Shown: positions 1,628 to 22,236 of the stretch, in pieces
Numbering within the stretch: position 1 is the first letter of the stretch
Layout of the letters: each line of letters begins with the position of its first letter
Virus record (IMG/VR): IMGVR_UViG_3300030331_004188
Location: 1 to 39,457 of that record
DNA length: 39,457 bases
Source of the DNA: a virus
Reading direction: 5' to 3' (one strand)
Program-made: the position numbers and the translations under genes
Notes under the pieces: generated by a model
The model's database searches: none
Seen by the model: the letters and a program-made list of their open reading frames with translations, nothing else
What the model was told of the DNA's origin: nothing

Positions 1628-2733
1628 TGACACTAAAAGTTCTTGACCTCTTCTCAGGTATCGGTGGATTCTCTTACGCTGCTGAACGCCTTGTAGGAGG
1701 CTTCAAGACAACACAATTTGTAGAGATTGATCCCTACTGTCAGTCAGTTCTACGCAAAAACTTTCCTAACGTACCTATTCACGATGACATCAAAACATTC
1801 AACGCCAAAGAAGGTCAATTCCAAGTCATCACAGCAGGTTTTCCCTGTCAGGACTTGTCAGTCGCAGGACAACAAGCAGGGATTGGAGAGGGCACAAGAA
1901 GTGGGTTATTCTTTGAAGTCCTCAGACTCGCTAGGCAAATACGACCTAAATTCATCCTCTTTGAAAATGTTAGAAATTTACTCTCTCACAAAGAAGGGGA
2001 AACTTTCCAGCAAATCCTCCAAGAAATTGCCAAAGCAGGGTTTAATGCTGAGTGGGCGGCTGTTTCGGCAGCAGATATGGCAAACACCTGCCACAAAAGA
2101 GAACGAATCTGGATTATTACCTACCCCTCTAGCCTCCTCGAAAGTAGAGCAGAGAGTACCGTTCAAGCAGGGAGGGAAGCCACTACTAGCAGCACTGTTA
2201 CCAACTCCAAGAGCATCAGCAGCTATGACAGAGAAGTTGGAGACAATCAAGGAGAGAGGCAAGAACAACTGTCGTTTGGAGGAGACAATAGCAGAGACTT
2301 TACCTACTCCAACAGCGATGGATCATCTACCTCAGAGAGGCTTCGAGTCGATGGTCAAACAGACAACACAACACAGAAAGGGGAGGAAGAAGCTTGCCAA
2401 CTTAAGGGAGGCAGTCAACCCAGACACAGTAAAGCTATTCAACGAGCTACAGAAACTGAACCTACCAACACCGACCGCGAGGGATTACAAGGACAGTGGA
2501 GAGAATATGAATTATCAGAAGGCAGCAGAGAAGAAACGCCTTGCTGGAGTCCTCAACCACACACACTCGACCCTGACTGGAGAGGGTATGTATCTCAACC
2601 CACACTTCGTAGAGGAGATGATGGGCTATCCAATAGGGTACTGCGTTTAAAGGCGTTAGGTAACTCCATAGTGCCTCAGGCTGCTGCTGTACCTCTTGCA
2701 CGTATCAAACAACTTCACACACTTCTTTATTAA
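1627..2733 (+). CDS. DNA (cytosine-5-)-methyltransferase, phage type
   Basis: Transfers methyl from S-adenosylmethionine to C5 of cytosine in a specific DNA site. Motifs in order: motif I DLFSGIGGF (7-15, SAM binding), IDPYC (35-39), motif IV GFPCQDLS (71-78, catalytic Cys74), motif VI ENVRN (113-117), motif VIII-like KRERIWII (about 157-164), and RLKALGNSIVPQ (about 340-351, motifs IX/X). The stretch 168-335, where the target-recognition domain belongs, is low-complexity Ser/Thr/Glu/Arg/Gln with repeated YPSS, TNSKS, YSNSDGS and TNTDRE elements. No restriction enzyme is adjacent, so it looks like an orphan enzyme, perhaps shielding phage DNA from host restriction. The same DNA carries a second long open frame (separate entry). 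Confidence 0.92.
   Translation: MTLKVLDLFSGIGGFSYAAERLVGGFKTTQFVEIDPYCQSVLRKNFPNVPIHDDIKTFNAKEGQFQVITAGFPCQDLSVAGQQAGIGEGTRSGLFFEVLRLARQIRPKFILFENVRNLLSHKEGETFQQILQEIAKAGFNAEWAAVSAADMANTCHKRERIWIITYPSSLLESRAESTVQAGREATTSSTVTNSKSISSYDREVGDNQGERQEQLSFGGDNSRDFTYSNSDGSSTSERLRVDGQTDNTTQKGEEEACQLKGGSQPRHSKAIQRATETEPTNTDREGLQGQWREYELSEGSREETPCWSPQPHTLDPDWRGYVSQPTLRRGDDGLSNRVLRLKALGNSIVPQAAAVPLARIKQLHTLLY
1784..2650 (+). CDS. Overlapping open frame inside the methyltransferase gene (LPTP-repeat type protein)
   Basis: Lies wholly inside the C5 methyltransferase gene, in the +1 frame: 288 codons from ATG 1784, or from TTG 1727. It reads like a real protein family. It has FPVRTCQSQ at the bases coding FPCQDLS, a SLGKYDLNSSSLKM segment, then LLPTPLAS, LLPTPRAS, LPTPTAMDH and LPTPTARDYKDSG, and ends LNPHFVEEMMGYPIGY. 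The LPTPTA-type repeats plus NP-F-EWLMGFP-like ending are familiar from phage proteins annotated next to methylases. Each LPTP repeat coincides with a YSNS or TNTD repeat in the main frame. Whether it is translated is unknown; no clear Shine-Dalgarno precedes ATG 1784. Confidence 0.45.
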   Translation: MTSKHSTPKKVNSKSSQQVFPVRTCQSQDNKQGLERAQEVGYSLKSSDSLGKYDLNSSSLKMLEIYSLTKKGKLSSKSSKKLPKQGLMLSGRLFRQQIWQTPATKENESGLLPTPLASSKVEQRVPFKQGGKPLLAALLPTPRASAAMTEKLETIKERGKNNCRLEETIAETLPTPTAMDHLPQRGFESMVKQTTQHRKGRKKLANLREAVNPDTVKLFNELQKLNLPTPTARDYKDSGENMNYQKAAEKKRLAGVLNHTHSTLTGEGMYLNPHFVEEMMGYPIGYCV

Positions 2734-3581: not shown

Positions 3582-3803
3582 ATGACTAGCACATCCTTCT
3601 ACGCCCTAATGGGAGAGTTTAGTAAGAAACTTACAGACTTACAGAAACAAGAGCAAACCATGCACGAAATGGACAAATCAGTTGAACCTGAAATTTTAGA
3701 GAATGTTTTGGAGATAGTGAACTACCATTATTACTTTGATCCAACTCCTGACAACACTGGAGAGGATTATTACAGACCACAACTATGGGTTTTAGACGAC
3801 TAA
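3582..3803 (+). CDS. Hypothetical protein, 73 aa
   Basis: The ATG follows a short leader ending in GGAGCAACACC. The helical N-terminal half has the look of a short coiled coil (MGEFSKKLTDLQKQEQTMHEMDK); the C-terminus is rich in Tyr, Asp and Pro (YHYYFDPTPDNTGEDYYRPQ). It is followed by the first copy of a duplicated CA-rich leader. Function unknown. Confidence 0.6.
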   Translation: MTSTSFYALMGEFSKKLTDLQKQEQTMHEMDKSVEPEILENVLEIVNYHYYFDPTPDNTGEDYYRPQLWVLDD

Positions 3804-3810
3804 GACCCTA

Positions 3811-3845
3811 ACTTCTCACCACCAACACACACATTTATCTAATCA
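3811..3845 (+). repeat. CA-rich leader, copy 1 of a duplicated pre-start segment
   Basis: The 23 bases from 3811 are identical to those from 4041. Both copies lie directly before a gene start and share the order CTTCTCACCACCAA, CACACACA, TTATCTAA, ATG. Neither contains a Shine-Dalgarno. Other starts in the window carry looser versions of the CACACA part. Confidence 0.7.
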
Positions 3846-4031
3846 ATGACTAGAAAAGAAATGGAATTTATTATAGAAAAAATCAAATTCCATAAATATT
3901 ATTTAAAGGAATATTGTCAATTAACTGACAAAGAAATTAGAGAAGATAAATATCTTCGAGAAGAACGTCAAATGGGTAACGACATTATTAAAAAATTAAA
4001 CGACCAAATTAAAAAACAAAGGAGAAAATAA
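3846..4031 (+). CDS. Small basic helical protein, 61 aa
   Basis: Starts right after the first duplicated CA-rich leader. The protein is Lys/Glu-rich, charged and almost certainly helical (RKEMEFIIEKIKFHKYYLKE...KKLNDQIKKQRRK), with a basic C-terminus that could touch nucleic acid. No family recognised. Confidence 0.6.
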   Translation: MTRKEMEFIIEKIKFHKYYLKEYCQLTDKEIREDKYLREERQMGNDIIKKLNDQIKKQRRK

Positions 4032-4040
4032 TTAATCCTT

Positions 4041-4074
4041 ACTTCTCACCACCAACACACACAGTTATCTAACA
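4041..4074 (+). repeat. CA-rich leader, copy 2
   Basis: Second copy of the segment at 3811-3845, identical for 23 bases and then similar (GTTATCTAACA before ATG). Having two near-identical untranslated leaders before two unrelated genes about 230 nt apart suggests a functional translation-start or regulatory element rather than gene duplication. Confidence 0.7.
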
Positions 4075-4467
4075 ATGAGTACAAGATCAGCAATAGGCTA
4101 CATGATGCCTTCAGGGAGAATCAAAGCTGTTTACTGCCACTGGGACGGCCACCCTGACACTAAAGAGAGGGAGTTAAAGAAATACAAAGATAAGAAATCA
4201 GTTGTAGCACTGATAAAGAAAGGAAGTATGTCCTCACTTGAAACAAGATCAACATGGTTATCAGGAGAACATGGTTACTTCGCAGAGGCGAGGGAACCAC
4301 AGCCCTTGTATCACTCAGAGAGGGGTGACAAATGGGCTACATGTAAGCCCAGAGTAAGCATCTCAAAGAGAGAAGCTATGAGGTTTTGGAGTGGTTGGGA
4401 CTGTGAGTATCTCTATGTCTTTACTCCAGATGGATGGAAAACTTTCCCACTAAGAGGAGAAAACTAA
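4075..4467 (+). CDS. Conserved phage protein with STRSAIGY / YCHWDGHP motif, 130 aa
   Basis: The N-terminus STRSAIGYMMPSGRIKAVYCHWDGHPD fits a recurrent phage and plasmid family with a conserved opening of this kind and the 'HWDG-P' signature; its role is not established to my knowledge. The rest is rich in Trp and Tyr with several charged turns. Full length looks intact. The TAA overlaps the next ATG by one base, so the following genes are coupled to it. Confidence 0.7.
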   Translation: MSTRSAIGYMMPSGRIKAVYCHWDGHPDTKERELKKYKDKKSVVALIKKGSMSSLETRSTWLSGEHGYFAEAREPQPLYHSERGDKWATCKPRVSISKREAMRFWSGWDCEYLYVFTPDGWKTFPLRGEN

Positions 4468-4853
4468 TGAACACATCTGTAACTCCAAATCCAATAGGAA
4501 TTAGAGGAATTACTACTCACCGCTCCCGTCATAAAATACAAGTAAGACTAAGAAGAACTACTTTCGATAAAGCCTTAACTATATATGATTCATGTTGGGA
4601 CAATCCAGAAGATCACAAAAAAGTTCAACGACTAATTCATGAAGGAATAATTAACACAGGATGGTTACCTAATTGCGTAAAATCTCAGGAAAAATTATAT
4701 GACTATATCAAAGAGAAAGGAGGTGCATTTAAAAATGCTTATAAACTTTACCCACATTTAAAATCACATGAATCAACAGAAGATCCTGTTCTTACTGAAT
4801 TACGTTTAATCAGACATTACTTACAAAAACTAACTCTTGGAGGAGAAAACTAA
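4467..4853 (+). CDS. Hypothetical basic protein, 128 aa
   Basis: The ATG at 4467 (MNTSVTPNPIG) is chosen because it overlaps the preceding TAA by one base and follows an AGAGGAGAAAAC Shine-Dalgarno; an upstream ATG at 4434 would lie inside the previous gene. The first part is basic (RGITTHRSRHKIQVRLRRTTFDKAL), suggestive of a small DNA-binding module reminiscent of AP2/integrase-type N-terminal folds. That resemblance is weak. The C-terminal half is helical. Confidence 0.6.
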   Translation: MNTSVTPNPIGIRGITTHRSRHKIQVRLRRTTFDKALTIYDSCWDNPEDHKKVQRLIHEGIINTGWLPNCVKSQEKLYDYIKEKGGAFKNAYKLYPHLKSHESTEDPVLTELRLIRHYLQKLTLGGEN

Positions 4854-5029
4854 TGACTGTTTATGAAATCACAATGCAATGTAATCAATTCTTCTATTAC
4901 AAAGTAGAAGCAGATTCAAAAGAAGAAGCTTTAAAAGCTATCAAAGATGGTTCAATAGATCACTGTGATGCGTTCACAGATTACGACACACAAACTATTC
5001 ACACAATCGAGGAGAAAACTAATGCCTAA
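4853..5029 (+). CDS. Small conserved-type protein, 58 aa
   Basis: Coupled by TAATG to the previous gene, with a strong GGAGGAGAAAAC Shine-Dalgarno. MTVYEITMQCNQFFYYKVEADSKEEALKAIKDG has the shape of a small beta-beta-alpha domain often seen in phage and plasmid hypotheticals ('-V-A-S-EEA--A---G'). Its end overlaps the next start by 8 nt. No biochemical role known. Confidence 0.6.
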   Translation: MTVYEITMQCNQFFYYKVEADSKEEALKAIKDGSIDHCDAFTDYDTQTIHTIEEKTNA

Positions 5030-5537
5030 CTGGTGCAGCAACTCAGTCATGGTCACTCATGACAACCCACATAAGCTTAAAGAACTAGCAGACATCTTTA
5101 AGTCTGATAGTCCCTTCAACACTCTTATACCTCAACCTGACTGGCAAAACACACCTGCTTCAGAGGATTTAAAAGACTGTGTAGGAGTCACTGTGGCAAA
5201 GAAAGGTGAGTTACCTGAAAAGGATGTAATGAAACTTTCTAGTGGAGAGGATTACATTACTTGGAGGTGGCCTTCAAGTAAGAGGGCTGATGAAAGATGG
5301 TATGACTGGTGTCGAAATCGTTGGGGAACCAAATGGGACATACATGATGTTGAGGTTGACTATCAACCAGCAGACAACATGCTCACTCTTGAATTTGACA
5401 CTGCTTGGTGTCCTCCAGATGAGATCTTTCATCACTTACGCAAAGAGAAAGGGTATCAGTTTCTTACTTGGGAGTGGGCTGATGAATGTGATCCTGAGGA
5501 GGTAGGAGACCTCACTGACATCGACTGGGATGACTGA
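5022..5537 (+). CDS. Api92-like / YubB ferredoxin-like domain protein, 171 aa
   Basis: The ATG at 5022 gives MPNWCSNSVMV, the hallmark start of a phage/plasmid family (Api92-like, YubB-type ferredoxin-like domain). Other family-like features are Trp-rich blocks (ITWRWPSSKR, RWYDWCRNRWGTKWD) and the segment DTAWCPPDEIFHHL. An upstream start at 4965 would overlap the preceding gene heavily and lose this conserved opening. Family function unknown. A GAGGAG Shine-Dalgarno lies just upstream. Confidence 0.75.
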   Translation: MPNWCSNSVMVTHDNPHKLKELADIFKSDSPFNTLIPQPDWQNTPASEDLKDCVGVTVAKKGELPEKDVMKLSSGEDYITWRWPSSKRADERWYDWCRNRWGTKWDIHDVEVDYQPADNMLTLEFDTAWCPPDEIFHHLRKEKGYQFLTWEWADECDPEEVGDLTDIDWDD

Positions 5538-5597
5538 TCCTGGGTATCATTTGTTACACCTAAAACTACACACACATTTCTATCAAAATACAGAGTT

Positions 5598-21150: not shown

Positions 21151-22236
21151 CTAACCTATTGAAGGTGCAATAAGAGCTACAGAAGTAGACTCAGCAGCTG
21201 CTAGGTCAAGTGGGAAGTTGTGAGCATTACGCTCGTGCATTACTTCCATTCCTAAGTTTGCTCTATTAAGGATATCTCCCCATGTAGGTACCACTCTTCC
21301 AGATCCATCAACAACTGACTGGTTAAAGTTAAAACCATTCAAGTTGAAGGCCATGGTGCATATACCCATTGAGGTAAGCCATACACAGATAACAGGCCAA
21401 GAAGCAAGAAAGAAGTGAAGACTACGAGAGTTGTTAAAGGAGGCGTATTGGAAGATAAGACGTCCGAAGTAGCCATGGGCTGCGACGATGTTATAAGTCT
21501 CTTCCTCTTGTCCGAATTTGTAACCATAGTTCTGAGAATCAAGTCCTGTGGTTTCACGAATAAGTGAAGATGTAACCAATGAACCATGCATAGCACTAAA
21601 CAAAGCACCGCCAAACATACCCGCCACACCTGCCATGTGGAATGGATGCATGAGGATATTATGTTCCGCTTGGAAGACAAACATAAAGTTGAACGTGCCT
21701 GAAATGCCGAGAGGCATACCGTCACTGAATGATCCTTGTCCGAAAGGATAGACGAGGAATACAGCAAACGCGGCAGATACTGGTGCAGAGTAAGCAACAC
21801 AGATCCAAGGGCGCATGCCTAATCTATAACTAAGTTCCCATTGGCGTCCCATGTAAGCTGAGATACCGATAAGGAAGTGGAAGATAACAAGCTGATATGG
21901 TCCACCATTGTAGAGCCATTCGTCGATGGTTGCTGCTTCCCAGATTGGGTAGAAGTGGAGTCCAATTGCGTTGGAGCTGGGAACAACGGCTCCTGAGATG
22001 ATGTTGTTTCCATACATGAATGAACCAGCTACTGGCTCACGGATACCGTCGATATCAACGGGTGGAGCTGCAATAAATGCAACGATGAAACAAGTTGTAG
22101 CTGCAAGAAGGCAAGGGATCATTAAGATTCCGAACCAACCTACATAGATGCGATTGTTGGTAGATGTTACCCACTCGCAAAACTCGTCCCAACCTTGCAA
22201 AGGACTGCGGCTCCTCACTAAAGATGAGGTAGTCAT
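21151..22236 (-). CDS. psbA: Photosystem II D1 protein
   Basis: Full-length, uninterrupted D1 of 361 residues, the PSII reaction-centre subunit of the thylakoid membrane. It binds P680, pheophytin, plastoquinone QB and the Mn cluster. Seen: [105 protein letters not shown], and [12 protein letters not shown] with a C-terminal extension ending LIAPSIG. Residue 132 is Gln, equal to canonical position 130, as in D1:1-type forms. The N-terminus is two residues longer than usual. In cyanophages psbA replaces fast-turning host D1 during infection. Own leader and terminator; no intron. Confidence 0.98.

Follow-up and report, generated by a model that had tools for sequence, protein, structure and literature searches.

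A second protein frame inside a cyanophage cytosine methyltransferase gene very probably encodes the recognition region and motif IX of a split enzyme

The window analysed here is a 39,457-nucleotide stretch of viral DNA (IMG/VR record IMGVR_UViG_3300030331_004188). It carries a gene for a psbA-like photosystem II D1 protein (21151-22236, minus strand; phrog_182, E 1e-195), and the window is therefore that of a cyanophage. On the plus strand, the open reading frame at 1627-2733 encodes a protein of 368 aa, alpha, that belongs to the C5-cytosine DNA methyltransferases (Dcm): residues 3-206 match PF00145 (Pfam search, E 2.9e-47), alpha matches phrog_363 (PHROG profile search, E 8.7e-70), and the catalytic domain has motifs I-VIII with the PC dipeptide in its loop. 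The sequence match of alpha to M.HhaI is confined to residues 3-170. Motif IV, FPCQ, with the catalytic cysteine, lies at 1840-1851; motif VIII, RERIW, lies at 2099-2113, after which the recognition region begins; and motif X, RLKALGNSIVPQAAAVPLA, was placed by hhalign at 2644-2700, with single-frame constraint resuming at about 2659 in a sliding profile. The original prediction had pointed to a +1 frame, open for about 300 codons, inside this gene, and such a frame is present at 1727-2650, with TTG as its first start and 307 aa. The protein read from it, beta, is taken here as 1784-2650 on the same strand (288 aa plus stop), and its length is about 78% of the alpha span. Beta reads FPVR over motif IV and then carries four LPTP modules, LLPTPLAS... 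(2114-2194), LLPTPRAS... (2195-2299), LPTPTAMDHLPQRG...NLREAVNP... (2300-2461), which takes other ordinal positions in relatives, and LPTPTARDYKDSG... (2462-2590), followed by motif IX, YLNPHFVEEMMGYPIGYCV (2591-2647, hhalign). All the peptides quoted in the original prediction were located, namely FPVRTCQS over FPCQDLS (FPC at 1840), SLGKYDLNSSSLKM over the ENV region, the LPTP boxes at 2114, 2195, 2300 and 2462, and NPHFVEEMMGYPIGY near 2597. The beta of the window matches phrog_1008 (E 3.1e-21 to 4.7e-21), a family described just as 'DNA methyltransferase'; no Pfam or NCBIfam model matched it, and a sequence search gave no credible PDB relative.

Relatives were collected as nucleotide records encoding either the +1 or the Dcm frame, from IMG/VR, GenBank phages, plasmids, and bacterial or metagenome-assembled genomes, a set of collections that is metagenome-heavy. 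Both frames were open and homologous in all of the phage relatives examined first. The +1 frame by itself was also used to retrieve 80 loci from bacterial or metagenome-assembled genomes, which range from Rhodobacteraceae to Actinomycetota, Bacillota, Bacteroidota, Planctomycetota and others. Alpha overlaps beta in the same +1 register in 79 of them, and no beta gene independent of alpha was found among the 80. In the remaining locus (L191), the two frames are joined by an apparent 1-base shift, such that the N-terminal half of alpha passes directly into that of beta and a different frame encodes what is left of alpha (3665-4402, 3985-4500); this is either a natural fusion or an assembly error. 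All 58 betas tested match phrog_1008. The suggestion in the original prediction that protein families with FPVRTS, LPTPTA and NPxWVEWLMGFP motifs are the alternate frame of Dcm DNA is thus borne out.

Several loci show variations on this arrangement. A Porphyromonas phage (L170, BK068099.1) was considered as a case of beta without a methyltransferase and rejected, since an intact, unannotated alpha is present beside the beta, itself annotated as 'hypothetical protein' (1917-2531 of the locus). One uncultured Roseovarius chromosome (OX638333.1) holds five identical-scoring alpha/beta copies in five places (L242-L246). Tandem betas occur in L188 (3706-5606), with a second beta-like frame (4872-5597) after the first alpha/beta pair. 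Unusually long +1 frames, running well past alpha, are found in L219 (3431-5653, 741 codons) and L247 (3098-4525, 476 codons) and are possibly fusions of beta with neighbouring sequence. The cultured E. coli phages K1G and Bas73 (L253, L254) have the same arrangement as the window, with a Shine-Dalgarno sequence before beta; Bas73 is annotated with alpha alone. The arrangement is also present in a further BASEL phage, Bas74. Elsewhere the +1 frame is annotated as 'g50 internal gene' (Redbud), 'Mte8-like protein' (K1G) or a second 'DNA-cytosine methyltransferase' (Kiel007), indicating that annotators have met this frame without interpreting it.

We compared the stops in each alternate frame with the number expected from synonymous codon permutation, in which the shuffles preserve the main protein only. 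For the window gene, permutation predicts about 6.3 stops in the +1 frame between FPC and motif X; the only one present is the terminator of that frame itself, at 2648. Across 138 loci, many of them found through the Dcm frame alone, the +1 stops in this interval number mostly 0 or 1 against about 2-11 expected, the single stop usually being the terminator, and the stops of the +2 frame are at chance; the frame is thus not random, as had been claimed. The same counts in 40 conventional HhaI-type methyltransferases drawn from the same collection gave observed/expected values of 190/212 in the core, 200/182 in the recognition region and 116/103 at motifs IX-X. Beta is open across the tested interval in 97 of 103 genes. 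Among the exceptions, L122, L142 and L143 stop 15-30 codons before motif X, and L164 belongs to a sister subtype described below. Rare breaks were observed in L107 and L129, which have one internal beta stop each (TAG and TAA, respectively) with alpha intact.

The position at which stop avoidance sets in locates the start of beta translation. In 75 non-redundant genes, 41 of which were picked by the Dcm frame alone, 4 stops against 40 expected were counted in codons -10 to -1 relative to FPC, and 6 against 215 in codons 0-75 after it; stop avoidance was absent upstream of codon -21 and in the +2 frame. An ATG lies 5-27 codons ahead of FPC in 69 of these 75 genes (34 ± 4 expected), and 28 of them have an ATG before FPC with a Shine-Dalgarno sequence (6.6 ± 2.1 expected, by a crude scan). 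Plain beta starts are seen in relatives such as Escherichia phage K1G, with GGAG before the ATG, and Paenibacillus phage Kiel007, with GGGAGG. The frame of the window is open from TTG 1727, as originally described; the protein most likely starts at ATG 1784 rather than at that TTG. ATG 1784 has no Shine-Dalgarno sequence, and the alternative start GTG 1901, 20 codons after FPC and near the onset of beta constraint, is preceded by GGAGAGG (1885-1891; element 1885-1903, plus strand).

In a +1 overlap, the first codon position of alpha is the third of beta, and the third of alpha is the second of beta. On either side of the overlap, the third position of alpha has the highest divergence, as is usual for genes; within the core this divergence is approximately halved, and in the recognition region the order is reversed, with the first position (0.34) ahead of the second (0.17) and third (0.15). 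In 48 disjoint pairs, the first position exceeded the third over the recognition region in 43, with 3 opposite (p 5e-10), and comparisons of the window with its relatives gave the same pattern. In the 40 conventional controls, the third position was fastest throughout. In a sliding profile, beta becomes constrained 16-24 codons past FPC and remains so until about 5 codons short of motif X. We also estimated omegas from the same 48 pairs as OLGenie-style dNN/dNS and dNN/dSN ratios, which are pairwise values with a simple multiple-hit correction and involve no phylogenetic codon model. The recognition region gave 0.26 (0.21-0.30) for beta and 0.89 (0.78-1.03) for alpha, and the core 0.50 and 0.26, respectively; beta was at about 0.9 in the flanks and weakly constrained in its leader (0.85, 0.72-1.01). 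From the codon-position order and the omegas, both frames are therefore coding and under selection, and over the recognition region strong constraint falls on beta alone, alpha being near neutral. Two options had been left by the original prediction, selection on both frames or motifs of one frame forced by the other: the substitution pattern supports the former and refutes the latter, and shadow homologues with freely accumulating stops and substitutions fitting only the main frame were looked for and did not occur.

The C terminus of beta, LNPHFVEEMMGYPIGY plus two residues, contains LNPxFVEEMMGYPIGY, which is motif IX of C5 methyltransferases. It aligned with motif IX of conventional enzymes with an hhalign probability of 88% (E 3e-6), and 95 of 103 genes have the pattern in beta, as against one with it in alpha. 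The C terminus of alpha aligned with conventional enzymes at motif X only, so that alpha departs from the conventional monomeric form, in which motif VIII, the recognition domain and motifs IX and X lie in one chain. The AlphaFold model of alpha matches the M.HhaI fold (E 1e-15) and is folded at residues 1-187 and 315-368, except for the loop 75-87; residues 187-314 have a pLDDT of about 30, and this overlap stretch is predicted to be disordered. Motif IX is in beta and absent from alpha. Together with the model, these results indicate that alpha therefore lacks both motif IX and a predicted folded recognition domain, and that the +1 frame has motif IX and a constrained recognition region.

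The sister subtype, comprising 41 distinct genes (L205, L226, L232 and relatives among L260-L306), has motif IX in the alpha frame in 41 of 41, followed by motif X, and the LPTP modules remain in the +1 frame. By hhalign, its motif IX matches the end of beta with a probability of 99.4% and conventional motifs IX-X with 96%. Its +1 frame has 0 stops against 117 expected between motifs VIII and IX, and 238 against 228 at motifs IX-X; the omegas of beta and alpha are 0.11 and 0.82 in the recognition region and 0.99 and 0.12 at IX-X. In both subtypes, therefore, the recognition modules are part of the +1 frame, and it is motif IX that moves. In L164, the +1 frame is broken as in this subtype, and the locus lies on the same contig as L275, one of its members.

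The number of TP boxes per beta ranges from 0 to 5, with four in the window. The module MDHLPxR...NLREAV occurs as the first, second, third or fourth in arrays of differing length (positions 1/1 to 4/5), a mobility that fits an exchange of recognition modules. Each LPTP module may recognise a DNA sequence. Structure prediction was carried out on single chains: beta modelled alone was poor (pLDDT 59), and a fold search with this single-chain model against the PDB returned no match. Such an outcome would also be expected if beta were not a recognition domain.

We consider it highly likely that the locus encodes a C5 methyltransferase occurring naturally in split form, like M.EcoHK31I, with alpha as the catalytic subunit and beta, produced by internal initiation, as the target-recognition subunit carrying motif IX. 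Beta very likely constitutes what alpha lacks of this same enzyme, its recognition region and motif IX, a relationship that the original prediction had not seen. In this scheme, frame 0 would yield alpha, in which a long linker, probably disordered, takes the usual place of the target-recognition domain between the SAM-binding and catalytic domain (motifs I-VIII) and motif X; initiation at ATG 1784, or alternatively at GTG 1901, would yield beta in the +1 frame, made up of a weakly constrained leader, a conserved middle, an array of exchangeable LPTP modules, putatively for target recognition, and motif IX. The two would combine into one active enzyme, alpha forming its large domain and beta its small domain, with beta supplying motif IX and, presumably, sequence recognition. 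Several modules may confer several specificities, as in the multispecific methyltransferases of phages. Phage methyltransferases generally protect phage DNA against restriction, and the assembled enzyme would methylate DNA and presumably mask that of the phage from host restriction. With somewhat less assurance, we favour a broader proposal of a widespread class of dual-coded enzymes in which a detachable recognition subunit with several modules is encoded in the +1 frame, frame 0 has there become a near-neutral linker, motif IX has moved between frames, and phages would re-target the enzyme by swapping modules that have to remain open in both frames.

It is unlikely that beta is a selected and translated protein with a function of its own, such as anti-restriction or regulation, and no methyltransferase subunit. 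Its N-terminal part has no recognisable methyltransferase motif and searches of Pfam, NCBIfam and the PDB give no known domain, as such a protein might have it, but its C terminus is the motif IX missing from alpha, this motif changes frame in the sister subtype, beta never occurs without alpha in the 80 loci found through it, and the alpha model has no folded recognition domain. Still less probable is that programmed frameshifting joins alpha and the +1 frame into a single chain. The overlap of two frames whose motifs complement each other would suit this, and TTT CCC T at FPC could plausibly act as a slip site; however, an internal ATG with a Shine-Dalgarno sequence is conserved, the constraint on beta across the alpha core before motif VIII would be needless if the switch came after that motif, and, since motif X is again read in frame 0, the ribosome would have to shift twice. 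That the openness and motifs of the +1 frame are a by-product of main-frame composition or DNA repeats can practically be dismissed: LPTP boxes do repeat in register and both frames stay in phase when modules recombine, but synonymous permutation, the +2 frame and the conventional controls reject it, and the third positions of beta vary freely while its first and second are kept.

For the split methyltransferase, two-subunit dual coding is already known from M.EcoHK31I, whose smaller polypeptide comes from an alternate frame nested within the gene of the larger, the arrangement found at the present locus. As a two-polypeptide C5 methyltransferase, M.EcoHK31I was reportedly described by Lee, Kam and Shaw in 1995. 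By the description in PMC3404938, M.EcoHK31I (YGGCCR) has a larger polypeptide with motifs I-VIII, X and a predicted target-recognition domain and a smaller one with motif IX, a division of motifs that alpha and beta share. The placement of that domain in the larger subunit in this description counts against recognition in beta, whereas in the present family selection places recognition in beta. Compared with M.EcoHK31I as so described, beta is also large (about 78% of alpha) with several exchangeable modules, and the family is phage-borne and widespread and includes a sister subtype with motif IX in alpha. The family phrog_1008, which contains all the betas tested and is the one meant in the original prediction, is described without reference to a separate subunit, to recognition or to an overlap with alpha. 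The genes of M.AquI are consecutive rather than nested, unlike those of alpha and beta. As outlined in PMC3404938, M.AquI alpha/beta is likewise a C5 methyltransferase in two chains split around the variable region, but its smaller subunit carries both motifs IX and X. The ShiLan domain, an out-of-frame HNH endonuclease in mycobacteriophage methylases, is another second frame within a phage methylase gene (PMC11855218). It differs in being a recent mobile insertion encoding a homing endonuclease, whereas beta is the methyltransferase region itself, with motif IX; a Pfam search gave no HNH domain or other hit in beta, and an insertion of this kind was rejected. Arrays of exchangeable target-recognition modules are also found in the multispecific C5 methyltransferases of Bacillus phages (SPR, phi3T), where, unlike here, the modules share chain and frame with the catalytic domain. 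In the open-access literature searched, we found no description of the general phenomenon, nor any report on how widely it is distributed, on a recognition role for beta, on the shuffling of modules or on the motif IX frame swap.

If this reading is correct, the +1 frame of this methyltransferase family is a real protein that occurs in phages with many different hosts and, across many phyla, in bacterial or metagenome-assembled genomes, for which annotations usually give one frame and sometimes the wrong one. The family would then be a large natural case of long dual coding on a single strand, with one frame near neutral and the other selected, providing a clean system for the study of overlapping genes. 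The specificity of these enzymes is predicted to be set by a swappable second chain, which would be testable in cultured E. coli phages.
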